A stretch of DNA of 64,000 nt from Siphonodentalium dalli (Eukaryota; Mollusca; Scaphopoda; Gadilida; Siphonodentaliidae), in NCBI GenBank assembly GCA_032622095.1, contig CP136067.1:248001-312000 (forward strand), in the 5' to 3' direction. The notes under the pieces are model-generated. The model ran no database searches. It was not told the origin of the DNA and saw nothing but the letters and a program-made list of their open reading frames with translations. The position numbers were made by a program, and so were the translations under genes. Shown one piece after another: positions 42,562 to 53,876 of this stretch. Each line of letters starts with the position of its first letter. Within the stretch, counting starts at the first letter, position 1.

Positions 42562-43467
42562 ACTTGAAACTGTTTGGCCCAATGAAATTTTCTTTGACCA
42601 TTTTCCAAAATAAATGGCCGCCGACAGCAAGAACCCTGTTTCCATGTGAATATATTTCACATATAATTTATCAATCTATTTTTATCAAGGCTCAAAATAA
42701 GTGGCCAGTCACGGTCATTGTCTGACGAAAAAAAGCTTATGTCCAGTGCACTTCTGTATCTGTCGGACATTTGGTCCAATGCAAAGTTTTAAACAATCTA
42801 TCTGTTTGAGTACATCCAAGGAGCCATTACTGGCCAAATCGGACATTGAAAATAAAAAATAGTTCTTTTTTAATTTCAGATTAATTCCGAGTTAGTGCAA
42901 TTATCACGTCGTTTGTGAAGTGCATTTATATGTATAAATCAACGGAAAGTTTTTGAACTTTTGAAAACTAAAATAACTTGGGTTTTTCCTGGGTGGTGAT
43001 TGGACGCTCACTAACTCACTCATTGACGATTAATAAGTTGATTGGAAATTTAAATATGGTCTCACCATCCATTTGGTGCCTGTCATTTTGACAGTCAGTA
43101 GAGAATTTTTTTATTTTGAGCCTTGATTTTGATACCAGGAACCGGGCAGAAATTTGACAAATGTGAAAGTAACAAGACGTACAGAGATCAACAGAAACTT
43201 CTATATTTCTCAATATATATAAAATATCTGTTAAATATTATAAACTGAACATATGAATAATCAGAATTTGTCCATCTTTTAAGTGGATATAACTTTCAAT
43301 CACAGTTGTTGGAAATTCTTATCACAATCGGCCAGTAAATAAATTCACATACCATTACTTTAAAAATAATATAGGCAAGTATGGAAAGCTTCTGTGTGAG
43401 ATTGACGTGTCGCCATCTGAGATTGCGACGTCATAACCATAGTATTGCTTGTTATTAGTATAGGATT
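42562..43467. other. Unannotated stretch
   Basis: AT-rich; short ORFs only, with no domain or splice context recognised. Confidence 0.4.
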
Positions 43468-43712
43468 GACCAAGCCTGAGGTTAGTGTGCCTGTCATTTG
43501 CAGAATGAGGTCCCCAGAGGGTGAATTTAGTGATGCTGGCCCGCTATACCTCATTCTGCATGGCCTCATCTGCTATGGGAGACATAGACTCAGATTGAAG
43601 TTCCCAAATGGTGAATATTGTGATATGCACCCATTGGGAACCTCAATTATGTGGGATAGCATCACTAAATTCACCTTCAGCAAATGACAGACGCACTAAA
43701 CTCAGGCTTGGT
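43468..43712. mobile_element. H1 MITE, copy 3 (short form)
   Basis: The left terminus 'accaagcctgaggttagtgt' and right terminus 'actaaactcaggcttggt' extend the inverted repeats of the family outward by about 12 bp. The usual 'gcagaatgaggtccccagag' and 'gcatcactaaattcacc' lie inside, with a ~170-bp internal deletion relative to copies 1 and 2. Confidence 0.78.
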
Positions 43713-44051
43713 TATGACTCAGATGGTGATGGTGATAGCTATTCGAATAAAACAGTGACTGAAAGGAAGAAATGGTTTTATAAATGGAACATTTTTTATG
43801 CAGAAATAGGGTTGGACACTAGCAGTTGTCATATAAAACAGCGTCGGGCCACAGACGTGCTAACTCTTGGCCGTTGTAAATATGCATTGAAGGCAATTGT
43901 ACAGTACTACGGGGACATGCATGTATCGACTGACAAAGGACGTTTCGCGAATGTTGGGAATAAATATATTGCAGAGATATACATGTATATATTCGAAGGC
44001 TCAAGGGAAATGAATGACAAGATCCCAAATTTGAAACCAACGGAAGCGTAA
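43713..44051 (+). other. Open reading stretch of unknown meaning
   Basis: A frame opening inside the H1 MITE continues to the TAA at 44049-44051. The part outside the MITE (about 113 codons) starts Asp/Gly/Ser-rich and then has Trp, Tyr, Cys and charged residues in non-repetitive order ('KWFYKWNIFYAEIG', 'RCKYALKAIVQYYG'). I recognise no family, no start outside the MITE, and no splice-site support. It could be a fragment of an exon or transposon protein, or chance. Confidence 0.2.
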
Positions 44052-44325
44052 ATTATGAGATTCATGCATAGAGGGCCAGTTTATAGTGCATTGTCAGAGG
44101 ACACTATGAATATAGCAGACGGCATTTTGTATCAGAAATGCTAAAATTGTTCAAAATATACAATTACAGCACGTGCCAGCTGGCTCGACGTATAAATCAA
44201 ACAAACGTAACACGAGCCAGAGACGCGCCAATGTCGAGCCAGGGGAAGATAGCGCGACCCGTGTTTGGCGCGACGTATAAAACGGGCCTCAAGTGGCCAG
44301 CTTTACATTCCTGTCTATATTATTA

Positions 44326-44914
44326 TTAAAGGGACGGGCGGCCTTCGTTTTAAGTTATAATTTAGAAATAACATTATCAAATTATGATAATTTCCTCAAG
44401 AATATACTAATACATAGCATAGCATAATGATGATATGAATGCGATATTATTCATGTTTTGTGTCCGAGAAAATACAAATCGACTGTTGTTTATATTTTCT
44501 CGCAAAAAGCGCAGTGGATTGTTTATAAGATGAGTCACGATATTGCACCATTTCCTTATTTAGATTCGTGTGCTTTACGTCAGTTGTAAACTCCAAATTT
44601 GGTGCACTTACAACTTACAACTCATAATACGACTCATCATAATATTCTTTATTTGGTATGTATTATCATATATATGTTAGGAGAAAATACTTACTGGATT
44701 GAAAAATATTCATCTCTTTGCGAGAACAATTATATTATGTAGACGTTTTCTGTCTGATCATTTCCTAATCATCGTTAAGGGAGTTTTAGTGGATGTGACT
44801 ATTTTAAAACCTATATCCACAGGGAAGGCCGCCCGCATCCACAGGGAAGGCCGCCCGTATCCACAGGGAAGGCCGCCCGTATCCACAGGGAGGGAAGGCC
44901 GCCCGTAACTTTAA
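44326..44914. mobile_element. TA5 TTAA-flanked element with minisatellite end
   Basis: TTAA (44326-44329), then AGGGACGGGCGGCCTTC; the right end is GAAGGCCGCCCGTAACT, then TTAA (44911-44914). Termini match at 15 of 17 positions. The right end is expanded into a minisatellite. The rest is AT-rich without coding capacity. Confidence 0.7.
44815..44905 (+). repeat. 24-bp minisatellite, four units
   Basis: 'atccacagggaaggccgccc' plus 'gcat/gtat' repeated four times; the last has an extra 'ggga'. Each unit repeats the inner part of the TA5 terminus (GGAAGGCCGCCCG). Confidence 0.9.
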
Positions 44915-45399
44915 TGATGATCTATCTCTTCCCAGAAAGTTTAATACAGATTCCGTGGTATAAAATAATAGATATCAATCGAGGAGTTCTAACAATTAAT
45001 ATATATTTTATATAGTCACTAGTCAGTTTTCGGAGTAGGCTGGTCGTCAGAGGGTTAGACCCGGAAACAAATATGTAATGAAGTCATAAATTCATAAAAA
45101 CTACCATACACTTTGTGGCAAAACATTACTTCACATGTTGCATGCACGAAATTATTATGTTTGGACGCATTCTAAAACCAGAACTTTAAAGACTTAAATC
45201 ATGTGGTTTAATCCCACCCATCAGATGGATTTGTTTTAATGATATGTGTACCTTTAATGATATTTAACAATACTTTTTTCATTTCTAGTTGGTTTTCCAA
45301 TATGTTGCTTTCGTCATAGCATGGCTTGGAGTGACGGCCAATATTTCATGGCCAAAATTGCATTAGTTTCTGTCCTTGTCACTCTATTCACCCCTGTAT
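44915..45399. other. Unannotated stretch
   Basis: No feature recognised. Confidence 0.4.
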
Positions 45400-45660
45400 T
45401 CTAATTTCACACAAACTGCATATATATCGATTGGAGGAGTAAGGCTTTCTGTAGATGCCAAAGAGGATATTGTTGAAAAACCAACTTGCCAAGGCTGAAA
45501 AATGGGTATTTTTAAAATTGCTGTAAAAATGCTCAATGTGTATTTTAGCGGATTTTGGATATGTTATATATAGAGGAGATATTCCTGCTTCAAATGACAC
45601 CAAAATACCTTCATTACAAATTTATCACGGGTAGGCACCTAGTTTTGGGTTTGACGACCA
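45400..45660 (+). repeat. FB1 relic
   Basis: 'gcggattttggatatgttat', 'agaggagatattcctgcttc' and 'ttgacgaccagccta' follow the order of the right end of FB1 copies 1 and 2, with many changes. Confidence 0.5.
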
Positions 45661-45756
45661 GCCTAGAGCTATTTAAATAATCTTCACAAAAATGTTCAGT
45701 GCATACCAAAAGCATAACAAGAAGGACAACTCTATCTTGTTAACAGCATCCATCAA

Positions 45757-46207
45757 GGTTACACTGGTGTAAATATTTCCCATAGGCTTCAATGTTAACG
45801 TTTGTTGATCTGCATCAGAGGTCAAATGGAAACTGTTCAAACTGCCTTCGGATTATGTGAGCTTGACATCTGTGGAAACTTTCCCAATAAAAAAATCAAC
45901 ACCGTCTAGCAGGGAATCCACTTCAAATTTTCGTTTTTTCATGACTAGGGTCAGTTCCGCACTAAAAAAATATTGTCATTTTTTCAATCACACTTAAAAT
46001 TTCTAAACAGCCACAACAGACTTCACCTTTAATGAATGGGCCTCTTGGCAAATGAAGTTTGTGGGAGAATGATTCCTTGAATTTTTGTCAACAGTTTACA
46101 TTTAATTCATGCAACCAATCACAGCCCAGAGTGTTTTAACTGTGAAACTCTATACTCCTCCCGCAACCGCAGGGGGAGCTGCCTATAGTATTTACACCAG
46201 TGTAACC
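45757..46207. mobile_element. 451-bp inverted-repeat element
   Basis: GGTTACACTGGTGTAAATA at 45757-45775 is exactly complemented at 46189-46207; the match extends weakly on both sides ('cctaTAGGC' inside, 'TTGA' outside). No coding capacity; superfamily unknown. Confidence 0.75.
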
Positions 46208-46558
46208 TCAAGGCAAATTGTATTTCAACTATGGATCTACCATGATCTTACGATTTCATCTGTATTTTATTCACGATATAATTGTTTGTATTCTTGAAAT
46301 TGGGATTGTTGTTGTTGTTGTAATTGTGCCCCAGAAGAGATAGACCATCTATAAAGTGATATTTATTGGTGGATTTTGATAATAAAATTTCCAACAACTG
46401 TTCCAATGGTCATGTCAGTTGATTTCAATGTTTTATGATTATCAGTCGGTTAATGCAGTGCTCAAACCAACATTGCATGATTATTTCGAAACTGCTAGTG
46501 TTGTGAAACTGCTAAAAGCATCAATGGATTTAAAGATGCATAATCCGAATTACAGTAA

Positions 46559-46710
46559 TGCCCTAAATAATCGACTCCTTAACCACAGCAGAATTATGGG
46601 TAATTTTTCAGGATTTAGTTGGAAATATGGCTTGTTGCCATTCAGTGGAAAGCACTCACTCTCAATTACCCATAAATCTGCTGTGATTAAGGAGTCGATT
46701 ATTTAGGGCA
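46559..46710. mobile_element. Palindromic MITE, 152 bp
   Basis: TGCCCTAAATAATCGACTCC at the left and its exact complement at the right (46691-46710), extending through 'ttaa.cacagcag' to about 33 bp. The interior 'gggtaatttttcaggatttagt' and 'ggaaatatggcttgttgcca' is shared with the palindrome at 60901-61084. Confidence 0.85.
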
Positions 46711-47705
46711 ATTCTGTAACAATTACTATTTCTTTGGCTTCGGGGGTAAAAGATATTTGATTCGAGGGGAGGAAACCACCCATCAAAGTGTGATCAGATA
46801 CCGAGTTTTGAAATCTATTTCTTTTCACCACCAGTACTTTTTAGTGGCCTGGTAAAAAGTCGACGAGAAGACAGTCTCGAACCAAGTTGCAGATGAAGAT
46901 GGATAACTCTAAAATCAAGTTAGATATTTCATTTCATTTCGTTGAACAAAATGTTGATAAATAACTTGACTGGTCCCCGGACTATAAACCTTGCCATCGC
47001 TCTGCTTTTATAGACCTGTACGGACTATCACCATTTTGTGGATCTCCGGTCAGAATTCTGACCGGGATTAAAATAGAACAGTGCAAGCTGATTGGCTGAA
47101 GTGATTTGTGTGTTGTGTTCAAAGACCCACATTTGACTAGATTCTGCCAATCTCTGGTGGGAAAAAAATATCAAAACATATTATTTTGATATCCTACTTA
47201 GTATTTATGAATGGATATTTATAAATATGTAAACTATTTTCGAAGAACACTCGAGGCAGTGTTGCTGTAGTGTCTCTCCGTCGTTATGTTTGGATCGATG
47301 ACGCAAATGATGGCATCTACTTAAAGATGGCGATAGTCCGCACCGGTCTCTTATGGGAGGGCATGTCACAGAGCGATGGCGGCGTAGTGTTTCCTTTTTG
47401 GGCCAGGGACGAGTCTAATAAATAACAGGTTTTGGGAAATTTTATACTATATTTAATTGTGGTTAGCATTATTTTTGGGCAATCTATCCATTCTGATAAC
47501 TGAAGCGGCATTTCAAAAACCTTTTGTTGTTGCTGGAATCTGATGATATGGGGACCATCCAATCGGATTGAGTACCTTTAAGGAGTTGTTCCTAACAATC
47601 GATCATCGCAATTACTTCCATCTGTGTGAGTTCCCTGTGGGTTAAAGGTACTCAACCCGTAAAGAGGGTCCCCATCTCAACAGATTCCAACAACAACAAT
47701 CCGAT

Positions 47706-48095
47706 CAGAGGGTCCTATATTACTATTTCTTTGGCTTTGGGGGTAAAAAATATTTGATTCGAGTCGAGGAACCCATCAAACAAAGCTCAGAGTTATTAGA
47801 TATTGATTTTTCAAATTTGTTATGTTCTCGAGATGAGTACCAATAACTGCCGTAATCTGCTCTGGATGTGTACTCCAAATCTATTCAAACAGACAAGGAT
47901 GAATAACTCTAAAATCAAGTGGTAATTTTAACGCAATTTTGATTGAGTACTGGGCCAGATAGTATTCCCGATAATGAAAAATAATAGATTTCTAAAATCG
48001 ATATCTAACAAATCTGAGCTTTGATGGGTGACTTCCTCGACTCGAATCAAATATTTTTGACCCCCGAAGCCATTGAAATAGTAATTGAGAGGAGT
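47706..48095. mobile_element. ~390-bp MITE with ~85-bp inverted termini
   Basis: Left 'attactatttctttggcttt', 'gggggtaaaaaatatttgat', 'tcgagtcgaggaacccatca'; right arm inverted at about 48005-48092 ('cgactcgaatcaaatatttt', 'gacccccgaagccattgaaa'). A half copy of the left arm lies at 46725-46800 with 'gataactctaaaatcaagt' near 46905 and 47900. Confidence 0.75.
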
Positions 48096-48129
48096 TTTAT
48101 CGGGTTGAGTACCTTTAAACATTAAAATT

Positions 48130-48226
48130 TATATATTGCCTCTGTTCATAGAGAGCCCCACATAGGCTGGAGCAGACGACACTCAAGTGTATTCTTCCAT
48201 CTGTGTGAGGCTCCCTGTGGGTTACA
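48130..48226. repeat. TA4-related fragment
   Basis: 'agagccccacataggctgga' ... 'ccatctgtgtgaggctccct' with right end 'gtgggttaca'; the left TTAA is not preserved. Confidence 0.55.
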
Positions 48227-48284
48227 TATACAATATTCATGAGTCATTTCACTTATCGGAGTGGGTGCAAGTCTGGATAATGGT

Positions 48285-48512
48285 ATGTCTGTCATTTGCA
48301 GAATGAGGTCTCCAGAGGGTGAATTTAGTGAAACTGCCGCACATTGTGAGCTAGCATCACCAAATTCACCTCTGGGAACCTCATTCTCCGTATCTTCTGC
48401 CTAAGCAGAATGAGGGCCACAGAGGGTGAATTTAGTGATACTAGCCCATCTTGTGGGATAGCGTCACTAAATTCACCTTCTGGGGACCTCATTCTGCAAA
48501 CAAAACAGACAC
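48285..48512. mobile_element. H1 MITE, copy 4 (short form)
   Basis: 'gtctgtcatttgcagaatga' at the left; 'ctcattctgcaaacaaaac' then 'agacacac' at the right; four 'gaatttagtgat/atcactaaattc' stems inside, so it looks like two half elements joined. Confidence 0.75.
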
Positions 48513-48779
48513 ACAATTATGTCCCCTGGGACTGTTGTGGTTCTCTCTCAATAAGTTTGTCGAAATCGAACTTTAGACCGATTCTACACATGGTTTCCAT
48601 ACAAGGACAGTCTTTTGACCAATATTTGTTAGAGATATGGATGCAAGTTAGTCCAAACGTTTAATGCGTGCAACTCGAAAAGTGTTCCACACAAAATGTC
48701 AGACAAACTTGATACATACTCCATGGAATGCAAATAAATCAACATCCAGTTCTTAAGTGACAATCCTGACTGGGTCCAG

Positions 48780-49200
48780 CTGTCCACAGAAACTCCATGT
48801 AACGACCGGTCTGCATACTGATTATAGTGTGGTCCATTTCCATTTTCCATGAAGATAACGAATCATAAATTGACCTACGCACATGATAGCATTGTAAAAT
48901 CTTGCCTGGTTAAGACATCAGGCACTCACATCTGTCCACATAAACTCCACTGTAAGCAATCTGTATGCTGATTATAGTGTGATCCATTTCCATGGAGACG
49001 TGGAATCATATGTTGACTAGAACATAGAGTTATTCACCAGGTACGTTTCCACATGCACACTCTGCTATAACCAATCGGCCTATACACTAATACTGATTAT
49101 AATGTGATCCGTTTCCATCGAGATACAAATCACTTTATATTGTGATCAGTTTCCAATGAGACCCAAGTCATTTTGTAGAGTGCTACGTTTCCATGGAGAT
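48780..49200. repeat. Diverged tandem units, ~125-150 bp
   Basis: 'tgattatagtgtggtccatttccat' and variants at about 48819, 48970 and 49095, with 'aaactccatgtaacgaccgg'-type sequence ahead of each. They lie just downstream (- strand) of the CRYZ-like stop codon, so they may be in its 3' UTR. Confidence 0.6.
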
Positions 49201-49206
49201 GGCAGA

Positions 49207-49242
49207 TCATACTTTGGGGACCATCTTGCCTGAAGCAGTAGT
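49207..49242 (-). CDS. Zeta-crystallin-like quinone oxidoreductase, last codons and stop
   Basis: Read on the - strand from 49242: Thr-Thr-Ala-Ser-Gly-Lys-Met-Val-Pro-Lys-Val-stop (TGA at 49209-49207). A 'GKM/GKV + hydrophobic' end is the normal C terminus of CRYZ-type NADPH:quinone reductases (human ends ...ATGKMILLL; established knowledge). It continues the exon at 53876-53745 in frame if 53744-49243 is removed. The possible acceptor is ..TCGACCAG|ACT (AG at 49244-49243). It lies at the outer edge of the FB1 terminus; a start of the C-terminal piece inside the element's inverted repeat is unusual. If the element is not spliced, the gene copy is disrupted and this is a pseudogene remnant. 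Confidence 0.6.
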   Translation of the reverse strand, partial: TTASGKMVPKV

Positions 49243-50559
49243 CTGGTCGATAAAAGGTTTGACCTAGAAAAAATTTGGACTAAGTTGGTTTATATACCGT
49301 TTTGAAGAGGAGTGTATCCTCTATAACATATCCAAAATCCGCTAAAATCCGCTTTGAGCATTTTTTGTAATTCAAGATGGCGTCCAAGATGGCTGCCATT
49401 TTCCGTTAAGTCAGTTTGATGCAAGTATAGTGATAAAATATTGTCATATGTGTACACATGTTTACATTTTTGTGAAGCTAAGAAATAACGCCACCTTGCA
49501 ATGCCTAAACTGGAACTCCCAGTCCAAGATGGCCGCTAAAATGGCGACCGGAAGTGGAACATTTTACGTTTTTTACTAATATCTTTAAGATCAGTTTCTG
49601 CTATTTGGAACTGTTTCAGAAATGTGACTTTATTTTGGATTTAGAATGTTAAGTAATCTTTGAAGCAATGACATATGCCATTCATGATGTCCCCACCCTT
49701 TTCGATTACTCAAAAATTAGATTTTATAGAATGCGGTATAATAATTCATTTCACAAAAATATCATTGGGATTCTTGTAATATATCATCAAGAAATGGGAG
49801 GAACTGTGCAATGTAAGTGGTGCATTCTATTTTTTATGGATATTCCAACTCAATGGTACCAAAATTGTCACTTTGGCTCAAAATGGCTGCCAAAATGGCG
49901 GTCAATATATGGAAAATGGTAGTTATTGTCTCAGCATGCCATGCAACCGCTTACAAGTTGAGGTTGATGAACACAATTGACTACTCTGTCTTATATACAT
50001 TGACTATACTGACAATGCTGATGCACCTTGGTTAATTGCTACTATTTTAACCACTGAAATTACCTGAATTATTCCCATTTTTCTGTAAAAACTTGACAAC
50101 AAAATCGGCAAAAAATCACTTATCAGGTTTCAGCCAATTTTTAAAGTAAAATGGAACAATCTCTGGTTCAAATGTGATTATTTGTTTTGATATGTGCTAA
50201 ATATGTCACACTGAGGTATTTTAGTTAAAATTATTCAAGATGTCTTTCAAAAAGTTGATTTGTCACATATTTTCCAAACATTATGCTCTGCAAATTGTGA
50301 CTCACTTGGTTATTAAACATACTACATTAAGTTAATTTTCTAGTATGGGTGTCCCAGTACCTTATGGTGCATGGCAAGTTCATTTTAAGGGATGCAGTAT
50401 GGATTTTGCAGAAAACTGTTGAGATTCTGTCAATGTTTTTTAGTACTGAAATTGGCAGAACGTTGAAATGGAACAGAGTAATCGGACTACTCTGTCCAAT
50501 TAGCATCACCATTGATCAACGTAATAAAGTGTGAATGTATGTTGAATGTATGGTTATAG

Positions 50560-52560
50560 GTGAGATGTGTGGGTATATAGGGAGTTGCTGTATTCGTGAA
50601 TGCAGTGAATAATTAAACAATATGTGGATATATGGTCATGAATGTGGTGTCCACGGTGATATGTATATGTATACAAGAAGTAGCTGTAAGGTCATGTGTG
50701 AGGTGAGTATGTATACAGGGAGTGTCCGTCTGGTCACTGACGTGGTGTATGGGTATAACGAGAGTAGCTACATTGTCCATGTGTGTGTTGTTTATATGTA
50801 TGCATGTATGAAGTGACTATGCGATCATGGGTGGGATGTGTATGTGTACATTTGGTGGCTGTATAGTTATGGATGGGTGTATATGTGTACATGTGTTGGC
50901 TGCATGGTAATGGATGGGGTGTATGAATATATATGGAGTGGTTGTATGATTTTGGGCAATGTGTATAGGTTTACATGGAATGACTATACCGTCATTGTGA
51001 TGAAGTGTATATACATACATGGATTACAGTTTGGTGGTCATTTGCGGGCTTGTTTTGGAGAGTGCCCCTGTGGTCATGGGTGGGATGTATATGTATATAT
51101 GTTGTAGCTGTATTGTCATTGGTGTGGATATACATGTACAAAGTGAATAGCTGAATGCTCATGGATGGGGTGTATATGTGTACAGCGAGTGGCTGAATTG
51201 TCATGGCTGAGCTGTATATGTAAGTCTGGAGTGTACGAATGGTCGTGTGTATTGGTATATCTAGAAGGGTTGTATGGTCATTGATGAGGTATACATACAT
51301 ATACGCATGGAGTGACTCGATGGTCTGGGTGAGGTATATATGTAGTGGCTACATGGCCATGACATGGCCAATATGTATGCAGGGAGTGACATTATGACAT
51401 AATTAATGGCGAGGAGAATTGTTATACACGGAGTGATTGTATGATCACAAATATGGTTTATGAGTATACAGCGAGTGGCTGAATTGACATGTGTGAGTTT
51501 ATATGAAAGTCTGGAGTGTATAAATAGCCTTGTGCGCAGTTCAGGACATTGGTACATGTATATATATAACTAGCCGATGAGCCCGACGTTGTCCGGGCTA
51601 TTCAAAAACCAAATTTCAAGTCGATAGCTCCACCCGTTTCCGAGATCTGGTCTGCGCATGCGCGAAGCTGGCGTCGCACGGGCTCGGCGACCCGATAAAA
51701 TTCGTATCCGGGGCAAGATACATTCACATACCAAATTTCAAGTCGATGGCTCCACCCGTTTCCGAGATCTCGTCTGCGCATGCGCGAAGCTGGCGTCGCA
51801 CGGGCTCGGCGACCCGATAAAATTCGTATCCGGGGCAAGATGCATTCACATAGCAAATTTCAAGTCGATAGCTCCACCCGTTTCCGAGATCTCGTCTGCG
51901 CATGCTCGCCAATACGACAACGTCCACCGCCTGGTCAAACTACACACACGTACCAAGTTTCGTCCCGATCGGTCGAGAATCGTAGATTTGTATTAATGAC
52001 AGACAAACATACAGACATACAAACAGAGGTCTTCAAAATATATATGAGATGGCTGCTTGAGTGGCTATATGGCCATTGGTATCACAAATAGATATACAGG
52101 GAGTGACAGTATGACCACTGGTGAGGCGAATAGGTATACACGAAATGATGTATGATCATGATATGATTGTGGCGAATATAGGGGTGACTGTATGGTCATG
52201 GGTGGGGTGTATATGTACATTTTGAGTGACAATATGGTCATGCGTTCGGCAACTATATATATACATATTGTGACTGTATGGCCAACGGTGATGCGAATAG
52301 CTATACATGATATATGATTATGAATGAAGGGAATATGCATACAGGTCGTGACTATATGGTCATGGGTGAGATGTATGAGTTTACCTGGTGTGTCTGCATG
52401 GTTACTCACGGCTGTATGGTCATGTGTTGGTGAATGGGAATACCCAACTGTGGCTGTATGGTAATGGGTGAGGTGTATGTATTTACAAAGAGTGGCACAT
52501 GGTCATTTATATGGTGTTCATGTATATATGGAGTGACTATGGTCGTGGGTGGGATGTACT
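50560..52560 (+). repeat. Degenerate tandem array in the centre of the foldback
   Basis: Loose units of about 55-70 bp such as 'gtgactgtatggtcatgggt', 'gaggtgtatatgtatacagg', repeated some 25 times on the + strand before (to about 51560) and after (from about 52055) the HEL1 insertion. Long ORFs on both strands here are repeat readings. Confidence 0.75.
51570..52049 (-). mobile_element. HEL1 nonautonomous Helitron, complete 480-bp copy
   Basis: Read on the - strand: A|TCTCATATATATTTTGAAG at the 5' end (TC at 52049-52048), a GTCTGT microsatellite, 'acgattctcgaccgatcggg', then a 122-bp tandem core ('gagctatcgacttgaaattt', 'catgcgcagacgagatctcg') and a 3' hairpin AGCCCGGACAACGTCGGGCT followed by CATCGG-CTAG|T (CTAG at 51573-51570). 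A|TC start, hairpin and CTRR|T end are the Helitron signature. The tandem core plus microsatellite resembles bivalve 'pearl'/HINE elements (inference). It splits the central array of the foldback. Confidence 0.85.
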
Positions 52561-53744
52561 GGTGTAACTTTGGGCCCGTTTCCGCTCAAACCATGGACAG
52601 AATCCCAAAGGATGATTAAGTAGCTTGTTTAATAACCAAGTGAGTCACAATTTGCTACATTCTCGGAACAGCAGAGAATAATGTTCGGAATATAATCGAC
52701 GTATCAACGTTTTACCAAATTCATTTGCCATTTTGCAAACCATCTTGAGTATTCTTGTCTAAAACACCAGTGTTATACATTTAAGACAGATCAAAAATTA
52801 TAAGCACATTTGATACCAAAGATAGTTCCATTTTATTTCAAAAATTGGTCCAAACATGAAAAGTTATTTTTTGCCGATTTTGATGCCAAATTTGTGATAT
52901 AAAAATCCCATAATTCTGGTAATTTCAGTGGTTAAAATAGTAAAACTTATTCAAGGTACATCCGAAATGTTTGTATGCAATACACATAATACAGAATAGT
53001 CAATTTTGCTCATCAACCATAACTTCAAACCGTTTCATGGCATGCTGGTGCATTATTTAACATTTTTCACATTTTGACGCCATTTTGGCAGCCATTTAGA
53101 GCCAAAGTGACAATTTTGGTTACACTGAGTTGGAATATCCATAATAAATAGAATGCACCACTTACTTTGCACAGTTCTTCCCATTTCTTGATGAAATTTG
53201 ACTAGAATCACAATGGTAATTTTTTGTAAAATTCTATACTGCGTTCTGTAAAATCGAATTTTTGAGTGATCAGAAGAGTGGGGACCCCACGAATGGCATA
53301 TTTCATTGCTCCGATTGTGAGTTAAAATGCTAAATCCAAAATAAAGTCACAATTCTCAACCAGTTCCAAACAGCAGAAACTGGTCCTAAACATATCAGTA
53401 AAAAACTTAACATTTTCCACTTCCGGTCGTCATTATGGCGGCCATCTTAGGTGGGGAGTTCCAATTTTGTCATAGAAAGGTGGCGTTATATCTTAGCTTC
53501 ACAACAATGTGTATGTGTATACATATGACAATATATTCTCACTATAATTGCATCAAACTGACTTAACGAAAAATGGCAGCCATATTGGACGCCATCTTGA
53601 ATTACAAAAAATGCTCAAAGCGGATTTTAGCGGATTTTGGATATGTTATAGAGGATATCTTCCTCTTCAAAATGGTATATAAATCAACTTAGTCCAAATT
53701 TTTTCTAGGTTAACCCTAAAATTTGAGTTTATCGACCAGACTAC

Positions 53745-53876
53745 AGCGGCAGTTTGAATGATATCGACATGTGCCTGGGAGGCACTCTCCAGCGCGTACA
53801 CAGGTCCGACATGGGGGCGGAGCCAACCAGCCGTCAATCCGTCCTCGATGTATTTGTTCAATTCTTGGAACTCTTC
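53745..53876 (-). CDS. Zeta-crystallin-like quinone oxidoreductase, penultimate coding exon
   Basis: The acceptor 'attaaattacag' precedes 53876 on the - strand. The 44 codons read E-E-F-Q-E-L-N-K-Y-I-E-D-G, then 'LTAGWLRPHVGPVYALESAS', then Q-A-H-V-D-I-I-Q-T-A-A. This aligns without gaps to the C-terminal part of zeta-crystallin/NADPH:quinone oxidoreductase (medium-chain dehydrogenase/reductase superfamily): EEFQ..., GWLKP.IG..YPLE...AH..II in vertebrate CRYZ. CRYZ reduces quinones with NADPH in the cytosol and binds AU-rich RNA. The catalytic and Rossmann parts should lie upstream on the - strand; I could not find them up to 64000, so the preceding intron exceeds 10 kb. The exon ends at GCT|GTAGTC, a weak donor lying at the foldback terminus. 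Confidence 0.85.

Follow-up and report, generated by a model that had tools for sequence, protein, structure and literature searches.

Where a repetitive element interrupts a gene-derived exon and both junctions can be read as splice-site dinucleotides, it must be asked whether the element is removed from RNA as an intron or has simply broken the exon. This question is raised by a locus in the scaphopod mollusc Siphonodentalium dalli, within a stretch of 64,000 nucleotides of contig CP136067.1 (positions 248,001 to 312,000), hereafter the window, whose own numbering is used throughout unless a contig handle (C1, C3, C7 or C9) is given. If splicing were true, the locus would represent an unusually large introner-like case in an animal genome. 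A first-pass annotation made from the sequence had proposed either such a mobile intron in a zeta-crystallin (CRYZ) gene or an insertion that killed the C terminus of that gene. The comparisons described here point very strongly to a routine insertion of a non-autonomous foldback transposon into what is left of a duplicated zeta-crystallin-like gene, a fragment truncated at its 5' end of which the last exon was hit.

The interrupted exon and the inserted element

The exon lies on the minus strand and is recognised by translation and by genome matches as the last exon of a zeta-crystallin/quinone-oxidoreductase-like gene. Its first 44 codons occupy positions 53745–53876, and the remainder, which follows the second copy of a CTG triplet and runs up to the stop (...SGKMVPKV-stop), is placed at 49207–49235 (minus strand) by comparison with uninterrupted copies; the exon's last nine codons are thereby split from its first 44. 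When the two parts are joined across the site, a solved relative is human quinone oxidoreductase 1yb5 (E 1.3e-7). The description of the junctions in the first-pass annotation can be read directly in the sequence: on the minus strand the exon (...ATT CAA ACT GCC GCT) passes immediately into GTAGTCTGGTCGATAAA, and the far side of the element reads TTTATCGACCAGACTAC TGCTTCAGGC.... The further proposal that the two ends are the arms of a foldback was confirmed by the inverted repeats and by self-comparison.

The element itself is a non-autonomous foldback DNA transposon of 4,505 bp (49239–53743, minus strand) with termini TAGTCTGG...CCAGACTA, its boundaries being fixed by comparison with three loci where the exon is uninterrupted and with the termini of its family; read on the minus strand, it starts at the T at position 53743. 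Gapped self-comparison and inverted repeats delimit an exon-side arm of 1,128 bp (52616–53743, minus strand) and an opposite arm of 1,092 bp (49239–50330, plus strand), and the two are 80.2 per cent identical over 1,142 columns of the gapped self-comparison, giving inverted termini capable of folding back. The middle part (50543–52560, no strand assigned) consists mostly of diverged tandem units, often spaced at about 42 bp and sorted into repeat families D1–D7, and a different repeat, built of 122-bp units, breaks into it at 51600–51965. Sequence resembling this 122-bp unit was also seen by eye at about 56–60 kb of the window. On either side of the element stands the triplet CTG, at 53744–53746 next to the longer part of the exon and at 49236–49238 as a second copy (both minus strand); given the single CTG at the empty sites, the two are identified as a target-site duplication, and the G of the exon-side copy is the first base of the 'GT' that had been proposed as a splice donor.

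Uninterrupted exons elsewhere in the genome

The source genome (2.23 Gb in nine contigs) was searched with the 53 residues of the exon, its two parts joined at the insertion site. Four matches were obtained, three of them uninterrupted (C1:263424192, C9:843946 and C9:2374383, the last read on the other strand) and the fourth the window copy, which matched over residues 1–45. At the three other loci the exon runs without a break as GCCGCTGCTTCAGG, with one CTG, and all three uninterrupted copies carry GCCGCTGCTTCAGGC where the window has GCCGCTG-element-CTGCTTCAGGC. Homology extends into the host DNA on both sides: relative to the locus at C9:0.84 Mb the upstream flank is 93.4 per cent identical over 580 columns and the downstream flank 93.6 per cent over 1,135 columns, and when the host flanks of the window are joined to one another they show 95.9 per cent identity to C9:0.84, 95.0 per cent to C9:2.37 and 91.8 per cent to the C1 locus. 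Empty homologous sites were thus found at all three paralogous loci, for the window copy of the family only. Given an uninterrupted exon with homologous flanks on both sides, the element inserted within a continuous exon and duplicated CTG. More generally, paralogous empty sites of this kind settle the structure of an insertion.

The same loci decide the fate of an ancient intron, into which, or at the edge of which, the element might later have inserted. Beyond the position of the site inside a gene-derived exon, nothing speaks for such an intron; none was found at the insertion site in any of the three paralogous loci, across which the exon is continuous, and the element has a perfect 3-bp duplication on its two sides. 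The empty sites contradict such an ancient intron, which was rejected, its probability being negligible. The first-pass annotation had itself named an intact copy elsewhere as part of what would speak against splicing, and uninterrupted copies of the exon do exist elsewhere in the genome. Its second proposal, in which the insertion severs the C terminus, holds for the exon.

The events favored here would begin with a member of a high-copy terminal-inverted-repeat family landing within the coding sequence of the last exon. The insertion doubled three target bases, CTG, as can be seen in the sequence. The G of the duplication and the first T of the element together form an apparent GT donor, and the element end CCAGACTA holds the apparent AG acceptor. 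By arithmetic from the sequence, a read-through transcript would gain VVWSINSNFRVNLEKIWTKLIYIPF and then a stop, and the normal C terminus would be lost.

Splice-like dinucleotides at the junctions

Cutting from the GT at 53744 through the AG ending at 49243 does join 53745 to 49242 in frame, as had been claimed, and the joined frame comprises 44 plus 11 codons followed by a stop. The accompanying claim that GT and AG both lie in the termini of the element holds for the AG, which belongs to the element; the G of the donor is that of the host CTG, and only the T is the element's. Among 40 scored family matches, 33 start at query position 3 (the T of TAGTC), 4 at position 2 (the G) and 3 at position 1, the window's own copy being one of these last three, and the base before the terminal T differs between the family copies that were read. 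Since most matches start at the T and the preceding base is variable, the donor G belongs to the host, as the final base of the duplicated CTG.

Under an introner-like reading the element would be spliced out with a 5' site shared by the target duplication and the element and a 3' site of the element's own, adding Thr-Thr to the product. There is published precedent for this arrangement, in that the account of introners describes families whose 5' site comes from the duplication and whose 3' site is carried by the element, as well as others that add codons (PMC9860276). The G that such a donor needs is however found before only 277 of the 2,426 exact family termini (11.4 per cent, genome-wide, both element ends counted), and it is rarer there than expected rather than enriched, the background of 19 per cent being an assumption drawn from window composition. 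The donor was already called weak in the first-pass annotation, and with good reason: against the splice donor consensus MAG|GTRAGT, GCT|GTAGTC agrees at three of nine positions, and of the window's 3,405 GTs on that strand, 94.6 per cent reach the same score or a higher one.

The acceptor side is somewhat more favorable to splicing. Pyrimidines are moderately frequent in the tract that precedes the AG ending at 49243 (11 of 17, the median for all AGs on the strand being 8), and the AG ending at 49264 has 12 of 17 pyrimidines upstream. The junctions can indeed be read as GT and AG with the frame kept; frame-keeping carries little weight because two of the four nearby AGs that were tested keep the frame and two lose it. 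The introner-like reading must also accommodate a length of 4.5 kb, where median lengths of 30–654 nt are given for families in the published account (PMC9860276), and a host locus that matches one of seven protein blocks. With three of three paralogues uninterrupted, a donor that is very weak and takes its G from the host, and a preceding G at so small a share of family termini, this reading is not supported and is considered highly improbable.

A related reading would have the 4.5-kb foldback spliced from the RNA of the fragment, if transcribed, as one instance of a family with thousands of termini that sometimes makes introns where a G precedes the insertion. Little in the sequence would favor occasional splicing of this kind, and it is judged even less probable. 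The outcome is that a striking candidate for intron gain is removed, and that the bases at transposon-target junctions can be seen to mimic splice sites by chance.

A high-copy family with 3-bp target duplications

The insertion of a transposon is further supported by what is found at other copies. The exact 16-base terminus occurs in 2,426 copies genome-wide, while the reversed control occurs in none. In total 28 copies were examined: the window's own, 20 regions chosen among the 39 further scored matches, and seven shorter ones that had been picked for having two exact termini. Duplications were counted in 24 of these, L013, L014, L019 and L022 being left out as they have no intact second end. 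(In L014 the second arm is present with an altered tip.) Of the 24 copies whose two ends were found, 22 show a perfect 3-bp target duplication (all seven short ones and 15 of the 17 long ones, the window's included), L028 and L031 being the two without a clean one. The duplicated bases vary in sequence and include CTA, TAT, CAG, AAA, AAC and CTG, among others. Foldback arms together with a 3-bp duplication mark the family as an ordinary kind of mobile element.

L031 (C1:220469399-220475100) is unusual in that its ends plus host flank are perfect inverted copies over at least 329 bp, as far as the edge of the piece compared, which may be real structure or an assembly artefact, and it encloses an open frame of 200 residues with a zinc-finger-like start.

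Two sizes of element are apparent, one near 2 kb and one near 4.3 kb. The first 100 termini listed, all on C1, form 29 facing pairs, of which 15 measure 1.9–2.8 kb and 14 measure 4.1–4.65 kb. The seven short copies, taken from those 15 pairs, have the same tip and the 3-bp duplications, with only short arms by BLAST. No transposase was recognised by eye in the 17 long copies, where open reading frames of 130 residues or more were inspected, or in the seven short ones, where those of 80 residues or more were, and an autonomous partner sought among these seven shorter members (1.9–2.8 kb) was not found. Mobility would presumably depend on a transposase supplied in trans. An open frame at 47928–48122 of the window resembles, by eye, one within the short member L040, and is probably another repeat.

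The window element is atypical of its family. Over the first 1,000 bases it is mostly 82–89 per cent identical to the other copies compared, with 72.3 per cent to L017 and 59.7 per cent to the rearranged L013, while the other copies have a median pairwise identity of 93.6 per cent among themselves; age or membership of a subfamily may account for the difference. The nearest relative found is L013 on C9, which matches at 98–99 per cent over two stretches, of 343 and 1,146 columns, that do not adjoin one another in L013.

A truncated duplicate as the host locus

How much of a gene the element entered was assessed with a protein of seven exon blocks built from the locus at C9:0.83-0.84 Mb. In the genome all seven blocks were matched at that locus (by construction), at C9:2.37-2.39 Mb and at C1:263.40-263.42 Mb, and three blocks were matched at C3:9.80 Mb; some of the seven-block matches contain a stop, possibly at places where they overrun the end of an exon. 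The window locus, on C7, matched the last block only. When 82 kb of C7 was searched with tblastn, the only clear exon match was the last one, aside from a tandem repeat whose seed is the final 12 residues of one exon; for the other six blocks no convincing match was obtained, the remaining ones having E values of 0.19–0.92 in a search by which weak exons can be missed. Searches with Pfam ADH_N and ADH_zinc_N gave nothing on C7 near the window, the sole match on C7 being at 147.6 Mb. A complete gene in the window was rejected, with one of seven blocks matched and neither domain found nearby. The label 'CRYZ gene' used in the first-pass annotation was thus generous: the last exon is present, and no other exon was found at the window locus.

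The surroundings of the exon are those of a duplicate. By sequence comparison the downstream flank (43207–49238, minus strand) is colinear with the locus at C9:0.84 Mb in five pieces, at 91.6–96.7 per cent identity. The pieces in which C7 and C9 are colinear extend, in window coordinates, from 63.3 to 43.2 kb; the tandem repeat that lies beyond the window, at 65.7–66.8 kb, is placed consistently with this order. One block of seven together with this colinearity identifies the window locus as a 5'-truncated duplicate.

A minisatellite of 44-bp units, in which the final 12 codons of a crystallin-like exon recur many times together with the beginning of the intron that follows, lies at C9:833814-834451 and, in window coordinates, at 65717–66767 beyond the window; in a seven-block locus it multiplies a 5' splice site. 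The C9 locus also holds the ADH_N exon twice (C9:827393-827566 and 830855-831028, with peptides 96.6 per cent identical), and at C9:838168-838488 short partial repeats of the start of another exon, at 838168 and 838280, precede the full one at 838390.

It might be supposed that the insertion inactivated an otherwise complete gene copy and that truncation came afterwards, the last nine codons being after all separated from the rest of the exon. As neither the 82-kb tblastn nor the genome search gave a convincing match to six of the seven blocks on C7 near the window, nothing shows that a complete copy existed when the element arrived, and this order of events is judged very unlikely. The annotated claim that the insertion 'killed' the C terminus of a gene is correct as to the cut in the exon; the locus, with one block of seven matched, is however not an otherwise complete gene.

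The truncated gene fragment is probably dead. Compared by eye with the copy at C9:2.37 Mb, the window exon has six differences, four silent and two changing, and with four of six silent the fragment need not have been dead long; judged from these differences, loss of function of the window exon may be rather recent.

Relation to known systems

Long inverted termini combined with internal tandem repeats, as in the window element, are found in Tetris of Drosophila virilis (PMC4079207) and in Tm1 of root-knot nematodes (PMC3169594). Complete Tetris copies are without a recognised transposase (PMC4079207), like the family copies read by eye here, and some Tm1 members encode a putative one (PMC3169594). 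The tandem units lie in the arms in Tetris and Tm1, whereas they lie in the middle of the window element. The target duplications also differ, being 8–10 bp in Tetris (PMC4079207) and mostly 9 bp in Tm1 (PMC3169594) against 3 bp here, and on these descriptions a Mutator-type classification, as of those foldbacks, does not fit.

A 3-bp duplication is shared with PIF/Harbinger (PMC4482050, PMC10741241), the related PHIS elements (PMC4482050) and CACTA (PMC10741241). The CTG of the window and the CAG of L018 would, taken alone, fit the CWG of the NuwaI group (PMC4482050); across the varied duplications of the window family neither the TTA/TAA of PIF/Harbinger nor CWG nor ANT holds. The terminus is CACTA/CACTG in CACTA (PMC10741241) and TAGTC in the window family, and the usual first base is A or G in PIF/Harbinger and T here. 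Autonomous PIF/Harbinger members typically encode a DDE transposase and a Myb-like protein, and no autonomous member of the window family was found. No superfamily assignment was found to fit.

Introners have terminal inverted repeats and a duplication able to supply part of a splice site (PMC9860276), and the window element has both. Judged by the proposed GT only, the termini of the family do not regularly give splice sites (277 of 2,426 exact termini). Given the published arrangements, an introner-type mechanism as such would not be impossible, though the present evidence does not favor it: unlike the introners described there (PMC9860276), the window element is very long, mostly has no copy of the needed G at the termini of its family, and sits in the remnant of a gene.
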